The notes under the pieces were generated by a model that did not search any database, was not told the origin of the DNA, and saw only the letters and a list, made by a program, of their open reading frames with translations. Shown piece after piece: positions 14,856 to 61,631 of a DNA stretch of 64,000 bases (the first letter of the stretch is position 1; each line of letters opens with the position of its first letter). The stretch is from a virus, in IMG/VR virus record IMGVR_UViG_3300005527_000052, positions 19,387 to 83,386 of that record. One strand, written 5' to 3'. The position numbers and the translations under genes are program-made.

Positions 14856-14863
14856 TTTAAATT

Positions 14864-14964
14864 AATCTAGTAGCTCAGTTGGCTAGAGCAGAGTACCCTT
14901 ATGGTAAAGGACCAAAACACCGGGATTTATACTCAGGCCGTTGGTTCGAGTCCAACCTAGATTA
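14864..14964 (+). tRNA. Aberrant tRNA with about 27 extra nt in the anticodon loop
   Basis: Acceptor AATCTAG/CTAGATT, D-arm GCTC/GAGC and T-arm GTTGGTTCGAGTCCAAC are all canonical. The anticodon stem GAGTA/TACTC is perfect but encloses 34 nt instead of 7. I cannot assign an anticodon, because no simple excision restores a loop with U33. It may carry a small intron-like insertion, or be a degenerate or repurposed tRNA. The next ATG is 2 nt after the discriminator base. Confidence 0.6.
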
Positions 14965-14966
14965 TT

Positions 14967-19190: not shown

Positions 19191-19403
19191 ATGGCAAAGA
19201 AAAAGAAACAAGATTTAATGACAGATGAACAAGTAGCGATAGTAGTATCTAACGAAGGTTTAGGTTATGCTATAACAGGCTATATGGGATCGGAAAATTT
19301 TGAGAATAAAGAACTTGCAGAACTTTGGAATCAAGCTAAAGACGTATTAGATAAAATTCAAAATATTCTTGATGAGGCTTGGGTAGAAGGAGACGAGATA
19401 TGA
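19191..19403 (+). CDS. Hypothetical small protein
   Basis: The 70-residue protein starts with the basic MAKKKKQD and continues with an acidic helical part (ELAELWNQAKDVLDKIQNI). A GGAG site precedes the ATG. The function is unknown. Confidence 0.6.
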   Translation: MAKKKKQDLMTDEQVAIVVSNEGLGYAITGYMGSENFENKELAELWNQAKDVLDKIQNILDEAWVEGDEI

Positions 19404-33100: not shown

Positions 33101-33268
33101 TATAATAACGTAATGGTGGTTTCAAGGTTTAGACCATAATCGGGGACGTAGCTGCTCTACCGACAAAAACCGAAAAAAGATAGGACACAATAGGGTTCGA
33201 TTCCCGTGCTGGTAGCTGAGTGTTCTATAACTTTTCGGGTGCCGCGTTCCCTGCGGTGCCCGTTTTTT
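33101..33268 (+). ncRNA. Candidate orphan RNA with T-arm-like element
   Basis: TATAAT at 33101 starts a transcript with no ORF longer than 8 codons, and a strong terminator ends it at 33268. Inside, GCTCTACC pairs with GGTAGC around an A-rich loop and GGGTTCGATTCCC, a sequence like a tRNA T-arm. No acceptor or anticodon arm can be drawn, so it is not a normal tRNA. It could be a regulatory or tRNA-mimic RNA. Confidence 0.5.
33236..33268 (+). terminator. Intrinsic terminator
   Basis: CGGGTGCCGC and GCGGTGCCCG form a 10-bp stem (two G-T pairs) with a 7-nt loop, followed by TTTTTT. Confidence 0.9.
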
Positions 33269-33272
33269 ATTT

Positions 33273-34932: not shown

Positions 34933-35084
34933 TACAATAATGTAGTACCGGGTCTGCATCCTGAACAAAATAAAGGAAACCAAAACCCGACTGAATAGTT
35001 ATTGGCGGTTTTCTCTGGTCCGCCGTTATATCACCAAAACCGGGAATCCATGTCTGCTCGGTATGAAAATACCGGGCGGATTTT
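34933..35084 (+). ncRNA. Candidate orphan RNA
   Basis: GATACAATA at 34931 leads into 150 nt without a convincing ORF (the first ATG is followed by TAG). Stem-loops include GGCGG...CCGCC near 35010-35030 and GCTCGGTA...TACCGGGC at 35056-35077 with TTTT after it, which may be the terminator. A 60-codon frame at 35002 has no initiation signal. The interval has no other gene. Confidence 0.4.
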
Positions 35085-35137
35085 AGACGGTCGCCCAATA
35101 CGTCGTAAAAATCTACCATCTAAGGATACAATAAACC

Positions 35138-37025: not shown

Positions 37026-37205
37026 ATGCGAATTGATCCCGACGAATTTTTTAATGTTCTTTCTCGTTATATTGAAGAAGTTGCAAAGGATAAGATTCGA
37101 GATAAATTTAATGAGAATCACGGATATAGTAACTACGGCACCCGCGACAACCTTCATGAATCTGAAAGAGAATTGAAGGCTATGATTGAAAATATGATGC
37201 GTTAA
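37026..37205 (+). CDS. Hypothetical 59-residue helical protein
   Basis: TATAAT (36994-36999) is followed by a short leader with AAGGAA and the ATG at 37026. The product MRIDPDEFFNVLSRYIEEV... is helical and charged, ending in ELKAMIENMMR. The function is unknown. Confidence 0.6.
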   Translation: MRIDPDEFFNVLSRYIEEVAKDKIRDKFNENHGYSNYGTRDNLHESERELKAMIENMMR

Positions 37206-37207
37206 GG

Positions 37208-37545
37208 ATAGAATCGGCACTGCCGATTTGTTGTAGGGTTTACCCTACCGTCAATACTGAGGCTGTTACCCGACGTTAAACGTAACCAGCCTTCCTTTCG
37301 GCGGACGCTGAATAAAGGATAGACTAATCCTTGATAAAATAAAAAGTAGCCTATGGCATGTCGAAAGATTGCCAACGGCTTTAACAATATAGTCTAGAAA
37401 ACCGTTAAGGGTTAGTATAGGCTACCGATTGGTGCCTCTTAACAGGCTCGCTAAAATAACCAAAAGGGACCGTTATTCTCCGGTTAGGGCTTTGACCCAA
37501 CAGCCAAGAGAAATCTTGGATAATCGGAAATAACACTATTTCTAT
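37208..37545 (+). ncRNA. Candidate long structured RNA
   Basis: About 340 nt between genes contain no credible ORF. GATAGAATC at 37207 could start the RNA. GTAGCCTAT and ATAGGCTAC form a 9-bp closing stem (about 37348 with 37419) around GGCA...TGCC and AACGG...CCGTT helices. Further helices include CCAAGA-GAAA-TCTTGG near 37502. This degree of pairing suggests one or more functional RNAs. Boundaries are uncertain. Confidence 0.45.
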
Positions 37546-39857: not shown

Positions 39858-39929
39858 TTTGCTGTCGTCTAATGGTCGGACGCCGTAGCGGAACCTACGG
39901 AAATGTAAGTTCGAATCTTACCGGCAACA
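39858..39929 (+). tRNA. tRNA-like element with atypical anticodon loop
   Basis: The acceptor (TTTGCTG with CGGCAAC, first pair mismatched), D-arm GTCT/GGAC and T-arm GTAAGTTCGAATCTTAC are tRNA-like. The anticodon stem CCGTA/TACGG encloses 8 nt (GCGGAACC) without U33. The identity is uncertain; it may be a degenerate or divergent tRNA. Confidence 0.5.
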
Positions 39930-40401: not shown

Positions 40402-40755
40402 TATAATAGGGTGTAAGCGGTTGTGCTAGCCAATTGACTTACTAGCGTGCGGCGGCTTCGATCACGACGTAACGCGAATCCATGTATCGAATAGTGGTCT
40501 TTCGTCGATGTTTACCACGATAAAAAATAATCCGAGAGTGAAAGAGTTGGAGAACTCTGACCGTACTCTGACGTAAAGTTAAACTCATGCCGCAACGTAG
40601 CAACGGCTAAAAATAAGGGCGACGGCTTAGGGATTAGTGTAGGCTCCTAAGTTTGTATTGATAATCCGATCTAATCAATCGGGCGATAAGATTGTGTGAT
40701 TAACAATTTTATAACGCACTTGGACAGCACTCCCCGAGGGTGCTGTCTGTTTTTA
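40402..40755 (+). ncRNA. Candidate 340-nt orphan RNA
   Basis: CCCCGTAGG-GATATAATA (hexamer 40402-40407) drives a transcript with no plausible ORF. It ends at GACAGCAC...GTGCTGTC plus a T-rich tail (40723-40755). The interior is GC-balanced and unlike coding DNA here. I see no tRNA, tmRNA, RNase P or group I intron signature. It is the longest apparent untranslated transcript in the window. Confidence 0.55.
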
Positions 40756-50864: not shown

Positions 50865-50882
50865 AAAATAGAACGAGACGGA

Positions 50883-50888
50883 TATAAT
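50883..50888 (+). promoter_or_regulatory. TATAAT promoter of tRNA-Leu
   Basis: GATATAATAG lies 11 nt before the tRNA 5' end. Confidence 0.6.
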
Positions 50889-50899
50889 AGATTGTAAAC

Positions 50900-50986
50900 C
50901 CCCGTGTGGTGAAATTGGCAAACACTGCGGACTTAAAATCCGCCGCCGTTAATAGCGGCTTGTCGGTTCGACTCCGACCACGGGGA
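50900..50986 (+). tRNA. tRNA-Leu (anticodon TAA)
   Basis: A class II tRNA with acceptor CCCCGTG/CACGGGG. Anticodon stem GCGGA/TCCGC encloses CTTAAAA (TAA). A long variable arm (GCCGTTAATAGCGGC) and T-arm GTCGGTTCGACTCCGAC follow. It reads TTA. Confidence 0.92.
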
Positions 50987-51003
50987 CTTTGAAAGGAAAA
51001 TAT

Positions 51004-51249
51004 ATGGATCGTCTAGCTAATATTGGATGTGTCGGTATTTTGTTTGTCTATGGTGTTTATTTTACAGTCGTAGGAGCTTTGATTAGTCTTCTAGCTTTTT
51101 GGACGCAGAATAATCTTGCTTTTTGGGTAAGTCATTCTAAGGGTACTCCAACAGACGTTCCTTATTGGCTAGCTTGGGTAGCTTCAATTCCAGTACCGTT
51201 TACTTTTATTGCTAATATTGTTTCACAAATTGCTCGTTTGTTTGTATAG
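51004..51249 (+). CDS. Small membrane protein
   Basis: The 81-residue protein starts at the ATG after GAAAGGA. It has two to three hydrophobic segments (GILFVYGVYFTVVGALISLL, WLAWVASIPVPFTFIANIV). Its stop codon lies inside the closing stem of the structured RNA that follows. Confidence 0.65.
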   Translation: MDRLANIGCVGILFVYGVYFTVVGALISLLAFWTQNNLAFWVSHSKGTPTDVPYWLAWVASIPVPFTFIANIVSQIARLFV

Positions 51250-51341
51250 TATGAAAGGTTATAACAAAGCTACGGCGGCACGCCCAAACGCCGTAAGTGA
51301 GACTAGAGAGATCGGGCTTAAGGGTTCTCGTTTTCATACTA
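51247..51341 (+). ncRNA. Structured RNA element 1
   Basis: TAGTATGAAA (51247-51256) pairs with TTTCATACTA to close a domain of about 95 nt. Inside, TACGGCG and CGCCGTA form a 7-bp hairpin and GAGA...TCTC a second arm. It lies directly before another closed domain. I do not recognise a known class. Confidence 0.55.
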
Positions 51342-51353
51342 TACATTAAATAT

Positions 51354-51474
51354 AACACAGATGCCTAATAATAGGCGGTTAAAACTATCTTGCGGTTTTC
51401 TCCCGTAAGCTAAGGCACCTTTCCCTGTTGATAGTTACCCGAACGGAAATCTTGGTGAAAAACCAAGCTGTGTT
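51354..51474 (+). ncRNA. Structured RNA element 2, riboswitch- or ribozyme-like
   Basis: AACACAG (51354-51360) pairs with CTGTGTT (51468-51474) three nt before the ATG at 51478. Inside are GCCT-AATAAT-AGGC, a longer arm AACTATC...GATAGTT carrying TTGCGG...CCGTAA, and CTTGG-TGAAAAA-CCAAG. This multi-helix junction abutting a start codon has the form of a cis-regulatory RNA or self-cleaving RNA. No known class is recognised. Confidence 0.55.
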
Positions 51475-51477
51475 TTT

Positions 51478-51720
51478 ATGAATATTGAAATTAAAGAAAA
51501 ACAACTTCTACCATATCGTCCTTTTAACGATATTTCTTATCGCTATAATCAATGGTTTTACTATTCAAAGTGCGGTAAAGAAGATCACGGTCTTTGTTAT
51601 GTTACAGAAAAAGGTGTTTTTTCTGTTGATGTTCTAGGAATTAGTTTGATTAACGATAGAACATGGCAAGATTTTAAATTTCGTTCTTTTAATGGTGAGA
51701 TTACTATTAAGGTGAATTAA
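51478..51720 (+). CDS. Small protein, probable family B, behind structured RNA
   Basis: The 80-residue protein has PFNDISYRYNQWFYYSKCG, CYVTEKGVFSV and FKFRSFNGEITIKVN, a family B layout. There is no Shine-Dalgarno; the closing helix of the upstream RNA ends 3 nt before the ATG. Confidence 0.65.
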   Translation: MNIEIKEKQLLPYRPFNDISYRYNQWFYYSKCGKEDHGLCYVTEKGVFSVDVLGISLINDRTWQDFKFRSFNGEITIKVN

Positions 51721-51722
51721 AT

Positions 51723-52166
51723 ATGCTGCCTGTAGATAAAATCTTAGATTATCATCTCAAAGAGCATAGAGAAGAAATGTCTCTGCTGGCGGCGTTACTT
51801 GGTAACGATAAAGAAGATTTAGCTGGTATGTGTGCTATTTCTACATTGGAATTAGGTAAAATTTTTGAATCATATGGATATAATCCGTTATATTGCACTA
51901 CGGGTAATCATTGTTTTTTAATTGTAGATGATTTTATAGTAGATGCTACGGCGTCTCAATTTGGTTTTGACGATTGCTTATTTGACCTTCCGGATGAAGA
52001 ATTTGGTTATGAATTTTTTCATGCAGATTCTAAATATTTTGAATCGCAAGAAAAGTTTATTCACGCTTTATATCAGTGGCCTACAACTCAGCATCCTATT
52101 AATTATAAAGAGTGTTTGAAATCGAAAAGTTCCCGAATAAATCAGGATTCTATGATCGGCGTATAG
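51723..52166 (+). CDS. Putative papain/transglutaminase-fold cysteine enzyme
   Basis: The 147-residue protein has AGMCAISTLELG (Cys37), GNHCFLIVDDFIVDATASQFG (His63 and Asp74; written in pieces the motif is NHCFLIV and VDATASQF). This is the Cys-His-Asp order of papain-like and transglutaminase-like enzymes, with the typical VDxTxxQF ending. It may cleave or modify a host protein. The call is from motif spacing only. Confidence 0.55.
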   Translation: MLPVDKILDYHLKEHREEMSLLAALLGNDKEDLAGMCAISTLELGKIFESYGYNPLYCTTGNHCFLIVDDFIVDATASQFGFDDCLFDLPDEEFGYEFFHADSKYFESQEKFIHALYQWPTTQHPINYKECLKSKSSRINQDSMIGV

Positions 52167-58396: not shown

Positions 58397-59398
58397 ATGG
58401 CTCACGGAATTGAATACTTTGATAAAGTGGTATCGCGTCACGGGACAGAATGGCACGGTAAAGCTATCCATGTTAACGAAGATATGGATGTGCATCGTGC
58501 CGCTAAGGAAATTAGGCTTGATCAGTGGTCTATTCTAGAAGAACCTATTGAATATAAAGGTAAGAAAGTTGATGGACATAAACTTCTAGTCTGCTCAGAT
58601 AATAATCATGTTATTTCTGTTGTAGGTGCAAAGTATCGCCCCGTTCAGCCTAAAGAAATTATTGATTTCATTAGTGATTTGACTGTGGATAAAAATGTCG
58701 CTAAGGTTACTTCGGCTGGTACTTTTTGGAATCGTGAGGACGTTGTTTTTAGCGTCGAAATTCCCCGTGAATATAGGGTTAATAATGACGAAATGCGTCC
58801 TTATCTTTTGGTTTCAAACAATAATGCTGCGAAGCGTAAGTTTGTTGTAGGTTTTACCGCTACTCGTGTAATCTGTAATAATACTCACAAGATTGCTCTG
58901 AGAGAACTGAAGGGTAGCAGGTATTATTCTATGAAGCATACTGAGGGTCTTGGTAGTCGAATTCAGGACGTTCGATTGGCTTTGGAACTTGGTATTAAGG
59001 CTTTTGATAACATGGATGAAGAAATGCATAAGATGATTTCCGTCGTCGATCCTACGGTAATCAAATCTTATTATGATGAAGTGGTTCCCCTGCCAAATAA
59101 GCCAGCTAATGCTAGCGGAACTAGTTTAAAGAGATGGGAAACCAAAGTGGAAAAGGCTCGTGAATCACGAGTTAAAATGAATCAACGAATGATGTACGAA
59201 AGCGATACTCTAAAGCAGAAGCCTAATCTTTGGCTTGCGTATAACAGTGTAAATTGGTACAACGAGAATCATTCTCGTATTAATCAAGAAGATGATTACA
59301 GTCTCAATCGTCCGTTTAGTATTGCTCTTGGTCGTATTGGCGAACTTAATATCGATGCTTATGATGCTGCGTATGACATGATGTTAGCTAACGCTTAA
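58397..59398 (+). CDS. DUF932 (phage/plasmid-like) protein
   Basis: The 333-residue protein begins MAHGIEYFDKVVSRHGTEWHG and contains VGAKYRPVQPKEIIDFISDL, NREDVVFSVEIP, RVICNNTHKIAL and a C-terminal WLAYNSVNWYNENHSRIN. These are the hallmarks of DUF932/TIGR03299 proteins, common in phages and plasmids and related to LGT-type or Sak-like annotation. The role is unknown. GATATAATA (58370-58375) gives a short leader with AAGGAG. The coding sequence is GC-richer than its neighbours. Confidence 0.85.
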   Translation: MAHGIEYFDKVVSRHGTEWHGKAIHVNEDMDVHRAAKEIRLDQWSILEEPIEYKGKKVDGHKLLVCSDNNHVISVVGAKYRPVQPKEIIDFISDLTVDKNVAKVTSAGTFWNREDVVFSVEIPREYRVNNDEMRPYLLVSNNNAAKRKFVVGFTATRVICNNTHKIALRELKGSRYYSMKHTEGLGSRIQDVRLALELGIKAFDNMDEEMHKMISVVDPTVIKSYYDEVVPLPNKPANASGTSLKRWETKVEKARESRVKMNQRMMYESDTLKQKPNLWLAYNSVNWYNENHSRINQEDDYSLNRPFSIALGRIGELNIDAYDAAYDMMLANA

Positions 59399-60288: not shown

Positions 60289-60625
60289 AGATTTAGAGAG
60301 TGGCAATTTTAGACAGGCAAGATGTAAACTTAAAGATCAAAGAAATAAAGGTTATAATTATTGTTGTATTGGTGTAGCTGAAGTTTCGGCTAAAAAATGT
60401 GATCTAGTTAATGATGTTACTCATAATGTGAGCGGTGATTTACTTTCAGTACTTGCTGAAGAACCAGACGGTTATGATATCGTAAAGCATTTTTTGAATA
60501 CTAAAAATCCAGAAATATCTATCAATAATATTGATACAAATTGTATTTCAGCTAATGATAGATATCTTTGCAATTTCAAGCAAATAGCACAAGGTTTGCG
60601 GGATAAATACAATGTTCGAGGTTAA
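60242..60625 (+). CDS. Conserved phage protein of the YCCxGVA type
   Basis: The 127-residue protein has FLRQWIKDLESGNFRQARCK and YNYCCIGVAEVS, the W...LxSGxYxQ...YCCLGVA pattern frequent in phage and mobile-element proteins. It overlaps the upstream gene by 47 nt. The function is unknown. Confidence 0.7.
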   Translation: MKLTQKARKFLRQWIKDLESGNFRQARCKLKDQRNKGYNYCCIGVAEVSAKKCDLVNDVTHNVSGDLLSVLAEEPDGYDIVKHFLNTKNPEISINNIDTNCISANDRYLCNFKQIAQGLRDKYNVRG

Positions 60626-61631
60626 AAACTATCGTCTGCGGCTAGTAGAACCATTAGTTAATTCAGACTTTCTTGATATAGCGTGGGTTAATGATTGGCC
60701 CTGCGTCGTAAAACGATCGCAGTATAAAACTGGTGATCTTGTTACTTATATTCCCTCCGATTCTATAGTTCCGGATGAATTGCTGGAACAAATTGGTCTT
60801 AAAGGGAAATTAAGTGGTAGCCGTAAAAACCGGGTAAAAGCTGTTAGACTAAGAGGCCAGTTTAGCTGCGGTTTGATTGTAGATGTTCCTAACGGAACAG
60901 AAGAAGGCCAAGACGTAGCCGAGATTTTAGGTATTACAAAATACGAAGAACCTATTCCTGCTCAGCTTAGAGGAGTAGCAAGAAAACATCCTCCGTATTG
61001 GTTACATTATGATATCGAAAATATTAGAATGTATAATAGCTGGTTTGAAGAAGGTGAAAGCGTTGTTATAACTGAAAAAGTTCACGGATGTAATTGCTCG
61101 TTCTCTATTCATCTTTCAGATGAAAATGAAATCGTTTTTAGTGTATCATCTAGAAATATAACCTTAGAAGAATCTGATTCGAATACATATTGGTCTGTTG
61201 CTAGAAAATATAACATTAAAGATTTCATGATGAAATCGTTTTCGCACCTTTTAAATAAAGGAGACGCGATATATTTGTATTGCGAAATTCTTAATACTCA
61301 GGATTTAAAGTATGGAATTCCAAATGGCGAGTTTGAAATCAGGTTCTTTGATCTCCGATTTAATTATAATTGGAGGTCTTTCTATGATCTTGCTTCATTT
61401 CTTGGAAATGATTATAAAACGGTTCCTGTTCTCTACGAAGGGCCGTTCTCAAAAGAAAAAGTATTAGAATATACTAATGGCACTGAATTGATTAGCGGGC
61501 AACAACTTCATATCCGAGAAGGCTGTGTGGTTCGTCCGGTATTAGAAAGATATTGTGGACGCAATAGAGTCATAGCTAAATCAATTAGCGAGGACTATCT
61601 AACCAGACAAAATGGTACGGAGATGCATTAA
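60612..61631 (+). CDS. RNA ligase, DRB0094-like
   Basis: The 339-residue protein has an N-terminal OB-like domain (LVTYIPSDSIVPDELL, VRLRGQFSCGLIVD) and then the ligase motif I EKVHGCNCS with the nucleotide-accepting Lys. Motif III/IIIa-like YLYCEILN and a C-terminal EGCVVRP (motif IV) follow. This matches the DRB0094/Rnl-type RNA ligase family, which seals nicked RNA. With the many phage tRNAs, repair of cleaved tRNAs is plausible, but no kinase-phosphatase partner is seen here. Confidence 0.85.
   Translation: MFEVKNYRLRLVEPLVNSDFLDIAWVNDWPCVVKRSQYKTGDLVTYIPSDSIVPDELLEQIGLKGKLSGSRKNRVKAVRLRGQFSCGLIVDVPNGTEEGQDVAEILGITKYEEPIPAQLRGVARKHPPYWLHYDIENIRMYNSWFEEGESVVITEKVHGCNCSFSIHLSDENEIVFSVSSRNITLEESDSNTYWSVARKYNIKDFMMKSFSHLLNKGDAIYLYCEILNTQDLKYGIPNGEFEIRFFDLRFNYNWRSFYDLASFLGNDYKTVPVLYEGPFSKEKVLEYTNGTELISGQQLHIREGCVVRPVLERYCGRNRVIAKSISEDYLTRQNGTEMH

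Follow-up and report, generated by a model that had tools for sequence, protein, structure and literature searches.

The 64,000-nucleotide stretch analyzed here (the window; positions 19,387 to 83,386 of the IMG/VR virus record IMGVR_UViG_3300005527_000052), which belongs to a phage record of 83,386 bases, carries at positions 51354-51474 a closed RNA domain (domain 2) that ends just ahead of the start codon of an open reading frame (ORF) at 51478-51720. We suggest, with about an even chance of being right, that domain 2 is a non-decoding element resembling a transfer RNA (tRNA), which would act as a punctuation mark in a phage operon and be excised by the host RNase P and RNase Z, thereby freeing a near-leaderless messenger RNA (mRNA) for this ORF. 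The proposal builds on the computed fold of the element, its dimensions, its spacing from the start codon and its rarity, as well as on a junction shared with the tRNAs of the phage and on a leaderless promoter layout found genome-wide.

Structure of the element

The sequence-only reading of this DNA had described a helix, AACACAG/CTGTGTT, closing a domain with at least three internal arms and lying 3 nucleotides before ATG 51478, and the present analysis bears out each of these statements. The two strands are fully complementary and delimit a domain of 121 nucleotides; the closing helix comprises exactly seven base pairs, because the following pair would be U-U. The parts of the element and of the gene behind it, all on the + strand, are the following:

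51354-51360, +, 5' strand (AACACAG) of the acceptor-position stem, seven base pairs with 51468-51474 (sequence, folding)
51363-51376, +, D-position hairpin GCCUA-AUAA-UAGGC, separated from the acceptor strand by a 2-nucleotide linker, loop without the GG of tRNAs (folding)
51377-51439 (approximate limits), +, enlarged, branched arm in the anticodon position, outer stem ACUAUC/GAUAGU, inner hairpin UUGCGG-UUUUCUC-CCGUAA (folding)
51440-51450, +, 11 mostly unpaired nucleotides in the position of the variable region (folding)
51451-51467, +, T-position hairpin CUUGG-UGAAAAA-CCAAG, with 5 base pairs and a 7-nucleotide loop or 6 base pairs and a 5-nucleotide loop, loop without TTCRA (folding, geometry scan)
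51468-51474, +, 3' strand (CTGTGTT) of the acceptor-position stem (sequence, folding)
51475-51477, +, TTT, that is, a U in the discriminator position and the UU preceding AUG, with a predicted RNase Z cut after 51475 (junction as in seven phage tRNAs)
51478-51720, +, ORF of 80 residues, no assigned function, without a Shine-Dalgarno sequence (sequence)

The minimum free energy of the domain is -33.9 kcal/mol (z -2.86, with 1 of 200 shuffled sequences folding equally well). The joint Boltzmann probability of the acceptor-, D- and T-position stems is 0.87-0.89 with 0-60 nucleotides of flanking sequence and 0.78 with 120 nucleotides; in the anticodon-position arm the outer stem reaches a probability of only about 0.5 and the inner hairpin of about 0.95.

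The order and the sizes of the arms are those of a bacterial tRNA (RF00005): a 7-base-pair acceptor, a 2-nucleotide linker, a D hairpin, an arm in the anticodon position (here enlarged) and a T-position arm of 5 base pairs and 7 loop nucleotides, which directly abuts the 3' strand of the acceptor. A scan of both strands of the window for strict tRNA geometry retrieved four true tRNAs and domain 2 as the sole matches, whereas across 120 shuffled windows the same scan produced a total of 6 (about 0.05 per window), none of which had an ATG at +2 to +4. When the 399 ATG codons of the window that open a frame of at least 45 residues were examined in a wider test, such an element was found directly upstream at four true tRNAs, at domain 2 and at one other site, which is probably spurious (it has a 9-nucleotide loop and lies within another ORF). 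In the other 19 kb of the phage record, no tRNA-like element ahead of a start codon was found.

Judging from its sequence, domain 2 is not a canonical tRNA. At 121 nucleotides it matches neither the Rfam tRNA covariance model RF00005 nor ARAGORN, intron mode included, and it has no usable anticodon loop: the only 7-nucleotide loop of the arm, UUUUCUC, carries a U at position 37, so that the combination of U33 and a purine at 37 does not occur. ARAGORN and Rfam retrieved no transfer-messenger RNA either. With both curated and weak thresholds, Rfam gave no credible family for domain 2; we give no credence to a weak THF-II match on the opposite strand (E 3.5, 12.8 bits vs. a cut-off of 41).

Start-codon junctions and leaderless starts

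The junction between domain 2 and the downstream gene, T-TT-ATG, follows the pattern acceptor-N-TT(T)-ATG of seven tRNAs of the same phage. In six of them (Lys-CTT with an insert, Trp, Lys, Glu, Ile and Met), the acceptor is followed by A-TT-ATG, so that the ATG of the next gene lies 3 nucleotides on, and in tRNA-Gln the junction is A-TTT-ATG. The genes behind these tRNAs and behind domain 2 have no space for a Shine-Dalgarno sequence outside the tRNA or the element, and none was found in the sequence upstream of ATG 51478.

A further set of genes points to leaderless starts in this phage. The motif GATATAAT occurs 59 times vs. 10 expected, and in 23 cases it stands exactly 5 nucleotides ahead of an ATG (other spacings, 0-4). 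Leaderless promoters, as described in Deinococcus-Thermus (PMC12340547), have a -10 motif placed closely upstream of the ATG, and the sites of this phage, with a -10-type motif near the ATG, appear to form a family of such promoters. The palindrome GCCNTAGGC, often preceding these sites (window 30000-60000, + strand), is perhaps an operator. Unlike the genes of this family, ORF 51478 has no such promoter, and the same state would be reached there via RNA processing. Thus, the phage seems to have two routes to leaderless mRNAs, with either a promoter or a tRNA placed at the start codon.

Among other viral contigs, 77 of the 123 sites at which a tRNA is followed by ATTATG lead into a reading frame of 40 residues or more vs. 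32% of the other ATTATG sites. Junctions of the tRNA-ATTATG-ORF type recur across many unrelated viral contigs, which suggests that start codons placed against tRNA ends are widespread among phages.

Proposed processing of the transcript

The tRNA dimensions of domain 2 point to cutting by the tRNA-processing enzymes, and it is from the features described above that we infer both cleavages, the leaderless translation and the descent of the element from a tRNA. According to the proposed mechanism, the stack of the acceptor and the T-position arm would imitate a precursor tRNA; host RNase P would cut at the 5' end, at about 51353/51354, and host RNase Z, behind 51475, at the 3' end. What lies downstream would then be an mRNA with just UU ahead of the AUG of ORF 51478, which might be translated as a leaderless or near-leaderless message, whereas the upstream mRNA would retain the neighboring domain 1 (see below) as its 3'-end structure. 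With CCA-less tRNAs, a U no more than 2 nucleotides past the discriminator stimulates the RNase Z of B. subtilis about 200-fold (PMC10100781); in domain 2, UU occupies the corresponding place. The release of a leaderless mRNA, advanced by the sequence-only reading, fits well with the widespread leaderless starts, the lack of a Shine-Dalgarno sequence and the 3-nucleotide spacing of the tRNA-ATG junctions; what we would replace is the agent, namely tRNA processing instead of self-cleavage or a riboswitch.

Several findings weigh against this proposal. Ranked among 639 windows from this phage, domain 2 lies within the bottom 7% for z and the bottom 4% for energy, so that its stability taken alone is only moderate, is not striking and would not single the domain out. 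With 300 nucleotides of flanking sequence the probability of the acceptor helix drops to 0.02, the competitors being sequence within the domain and the downstream ORF; co-transcriptional folding would therefore matter. The D loop lacks GG and the T loop lacks TTCRA, as revealed by the sequence and by the alignment with the phage tRNAs; hence, RNase P and RNase Z may recognize the element less well. The geometric criteria were chosen post hoc, after the likeness had been noticed, although the sizes used are the standard tRNA dimensions. Domain 2 is represented by one sequence only, no homologue that could be compared for covariation having been found in the collections searched. Lastly, the other, independent tRNAs of the same viral contigs show only a modest excess of start codons at offsets 1-3 (19 vs. 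7 in the control).

Alternative explanations

A rather unlikely alternative is that domain 2 is a decayed or intron-carrying tRNA gene, with stems left by recent descent, the abutting ATG being a relic of the tRNA-ATG layout, and no present function. The layout and the stem sizes are indeed the same as those of the phage tRNAs, and enlarged anticodon arms do occur in this phage, given that its tRNA-Lys (CTT, 14863-14965) has a 27-nucleotide insert in the anticodon loop. However, neither the tRNA model of Rfam nor the intron mode of ARAGORN recognizes the domain, and the 12 pairs of the acceptor and T-position stems are without exception Watson-Crick, yet the consensus of both loops is lost; simple decay would lead one to expect the reverse. 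The domain might also be a different type of structured 5' leader (a riboswitch, a leader bound by a protein or a regulator of translation), with an accidental likeness of its closing helix to an acceptor stem. This we regard as unlikely: a stable multi-arm domain immediately upstream of a start codon is what such a leader would look like, but there is no Shine-Dalgarno sequence to sequester and no reason for it to copy the tRNA-ATG spacing. The riboswitch put forward in the sequence-only reading has no credible match in Rfam, even with E values of up to 5-10, and a convincing expression platform was not found either. That the fold arose by chance and has no RNA function is quite improbable; the modest energy rank, the post hoc geometry test and the lack of relatives speak for it, but it is at odds with the shuffled windows, in which a geometric match is rare and never lies beside an ATG.

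A consensus scan picked out the hairpin 51451-51467 with the U run behind it as resembling a terminator; nevertheless, we consider an intrinsic terminator or attenuator very improbable, since the hairpin has only 6 base pairs, three of them G-C (-6.8 kcal/mol), five bases (CUGUG) separate the stem from the U run, no antiterminator was recognized and the clear terminators of the phage, such as that at 40710-40745, are much stronger. The least probable alternative, to which we assign hardly any weight, is a new self-cleaving ribozyme that would release the leaderless mRNA protein-free, as the sequence-only reading had envisaged. A closed multi-arm domain finishing 3 nucleotides before an ATG would suit it; however, no Rfam ribozyme family is credible even at E up to 5-10, and the tRNA dimensions together with the tRNA-like junction account for the position of the domain without self-cleavage.

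Known systems and relatives

If domain 2 is the tRNA-like punctuation element proposed here, its closest precedents, by analogy, would be the tRNA punctuation of mitochondria and the t-elements of plant mitochondria. In mitochondrial transcripts, tRNAs lying between genes are excised and the flanking mRNAs are thereby freed (PMC8601606). The marks there are working tRNAs, whereas domain 2 would be a non-decoding mimic with a cleavage that is here predicted; the canonical tRNAs of the phage also show a layout of the punctuation type. Plant t-elements are tRNA-like structures at mRNA ends that are not used in translation (PMC11658184), and domain 2 shares with them a tRNA-like structure at an mRNA end. 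They are, however, homologous to tRNA genes, whereas domain 2 has no detectable tRNA homology, for which reason we do not file it among them; moreover, it has an enlarged anticodon-position arm and sits in a phage, before a start codon. In the literature on phage leaderless mRNA and tRNA processing, on tRNA-like elements and on tRNA punctuation, within a coverage from which subscription journals are mostly absent, no phage report of this arrangement was found.

DNA, protein, neighboring-protein and pattern searches of viral contigs and phage records retrieved no homologue of domain 2 or of its gene. For the terminase, just two close relatives were retrieved, each a short contig that stops short of the locus, and none among genome contigs; the scan for relatives with the promoter motif gave one contig, which is unrelated. 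A motif, GCGGTTTTCTC, also present at 35005, was discarded as being near chance.

Genomic context

The neighborhood of the element includes the following features:

50881-50888, +, closest upstream GATATAAT promoter-like motif, ahead of tRNA-Leu (50900-50987) (motif scan)
51243-51345, +, domain 1, closing helix of 14-15 base pairs and two hairpins (folding)
51723-52166, +, following ORF of 147 residues, with a Shine-Dalgarno-like AAGG (sequence)

Between the tRNA-Leu promoter and domain 2 there is no GATATAAT; ORF 51478 is therefore probably reached by a longer transcript, although weaker promoter-like matches exist. The ORF that follows it is probably co-transcribed with it.

Domain 1, which the sequence-only reading had likewise noticed, is real. 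It starts where the upstream ORF (50989-51249) has its stop codon, belongs to no known Rfam family and possibly represents the 3'-end structure of the upstream mRNA. It was considered as a second tRNA-like unit and rejected, lacking a T-position arm, so that the tandem position of the two domains, taken earlier as strengthening the case, adds no tRNA-like evidence. A GCCC/GGGC pseudoknot is possible in domain 1.

Other RNA features were observed in this phage. The insert of tRNA-Lys (CTT) is below the size of self-splicing introns. The tRNA at 39858-39929, with an odd anticodon loop, was missed by ARAGORN and found by Rfam in a smaller scan only (37.5 bits). Four long structured non-coding stretches (33108-33270, 34936-35105, 37200-37545 and 40410-40755) have no Rfam match; the third and the fourth share the motif TTAGTRTAGGCTMC, the first carries a T-loop-like GGGTTCGATTCCC, and the first and the fourth end in terminators. 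The phage also encodes an RNA ligase (phrog_968, 60612-61631), possibly for tRNA repair, and a protein of phrog_1221 (58397-59398), whose distant relatives are mostly in actinobacteriophages, weakly hinting at an actinobacterial host.

Implications

On a more general level, we tentatively propose, with somewhat less than even confidence, that phages employ dedicated non-decoding tRNA mimics as punctuation marks for RNA processing. By recruiting RNase P and RNase Z of the host, these would convert genes inside operons into leaderless mRNAs, within a genome whose promoters and tRNAs are likewise positioned for leaderless starts. If this idea is correct, it would assign a second job to the tRNA genes of phages and to the tRNA mimics, namely a mitochondria-like RNA punctuation yielding leaderless mRNAs, and would help to explain why some phages have tRNAs immediately adjoining a start codon.
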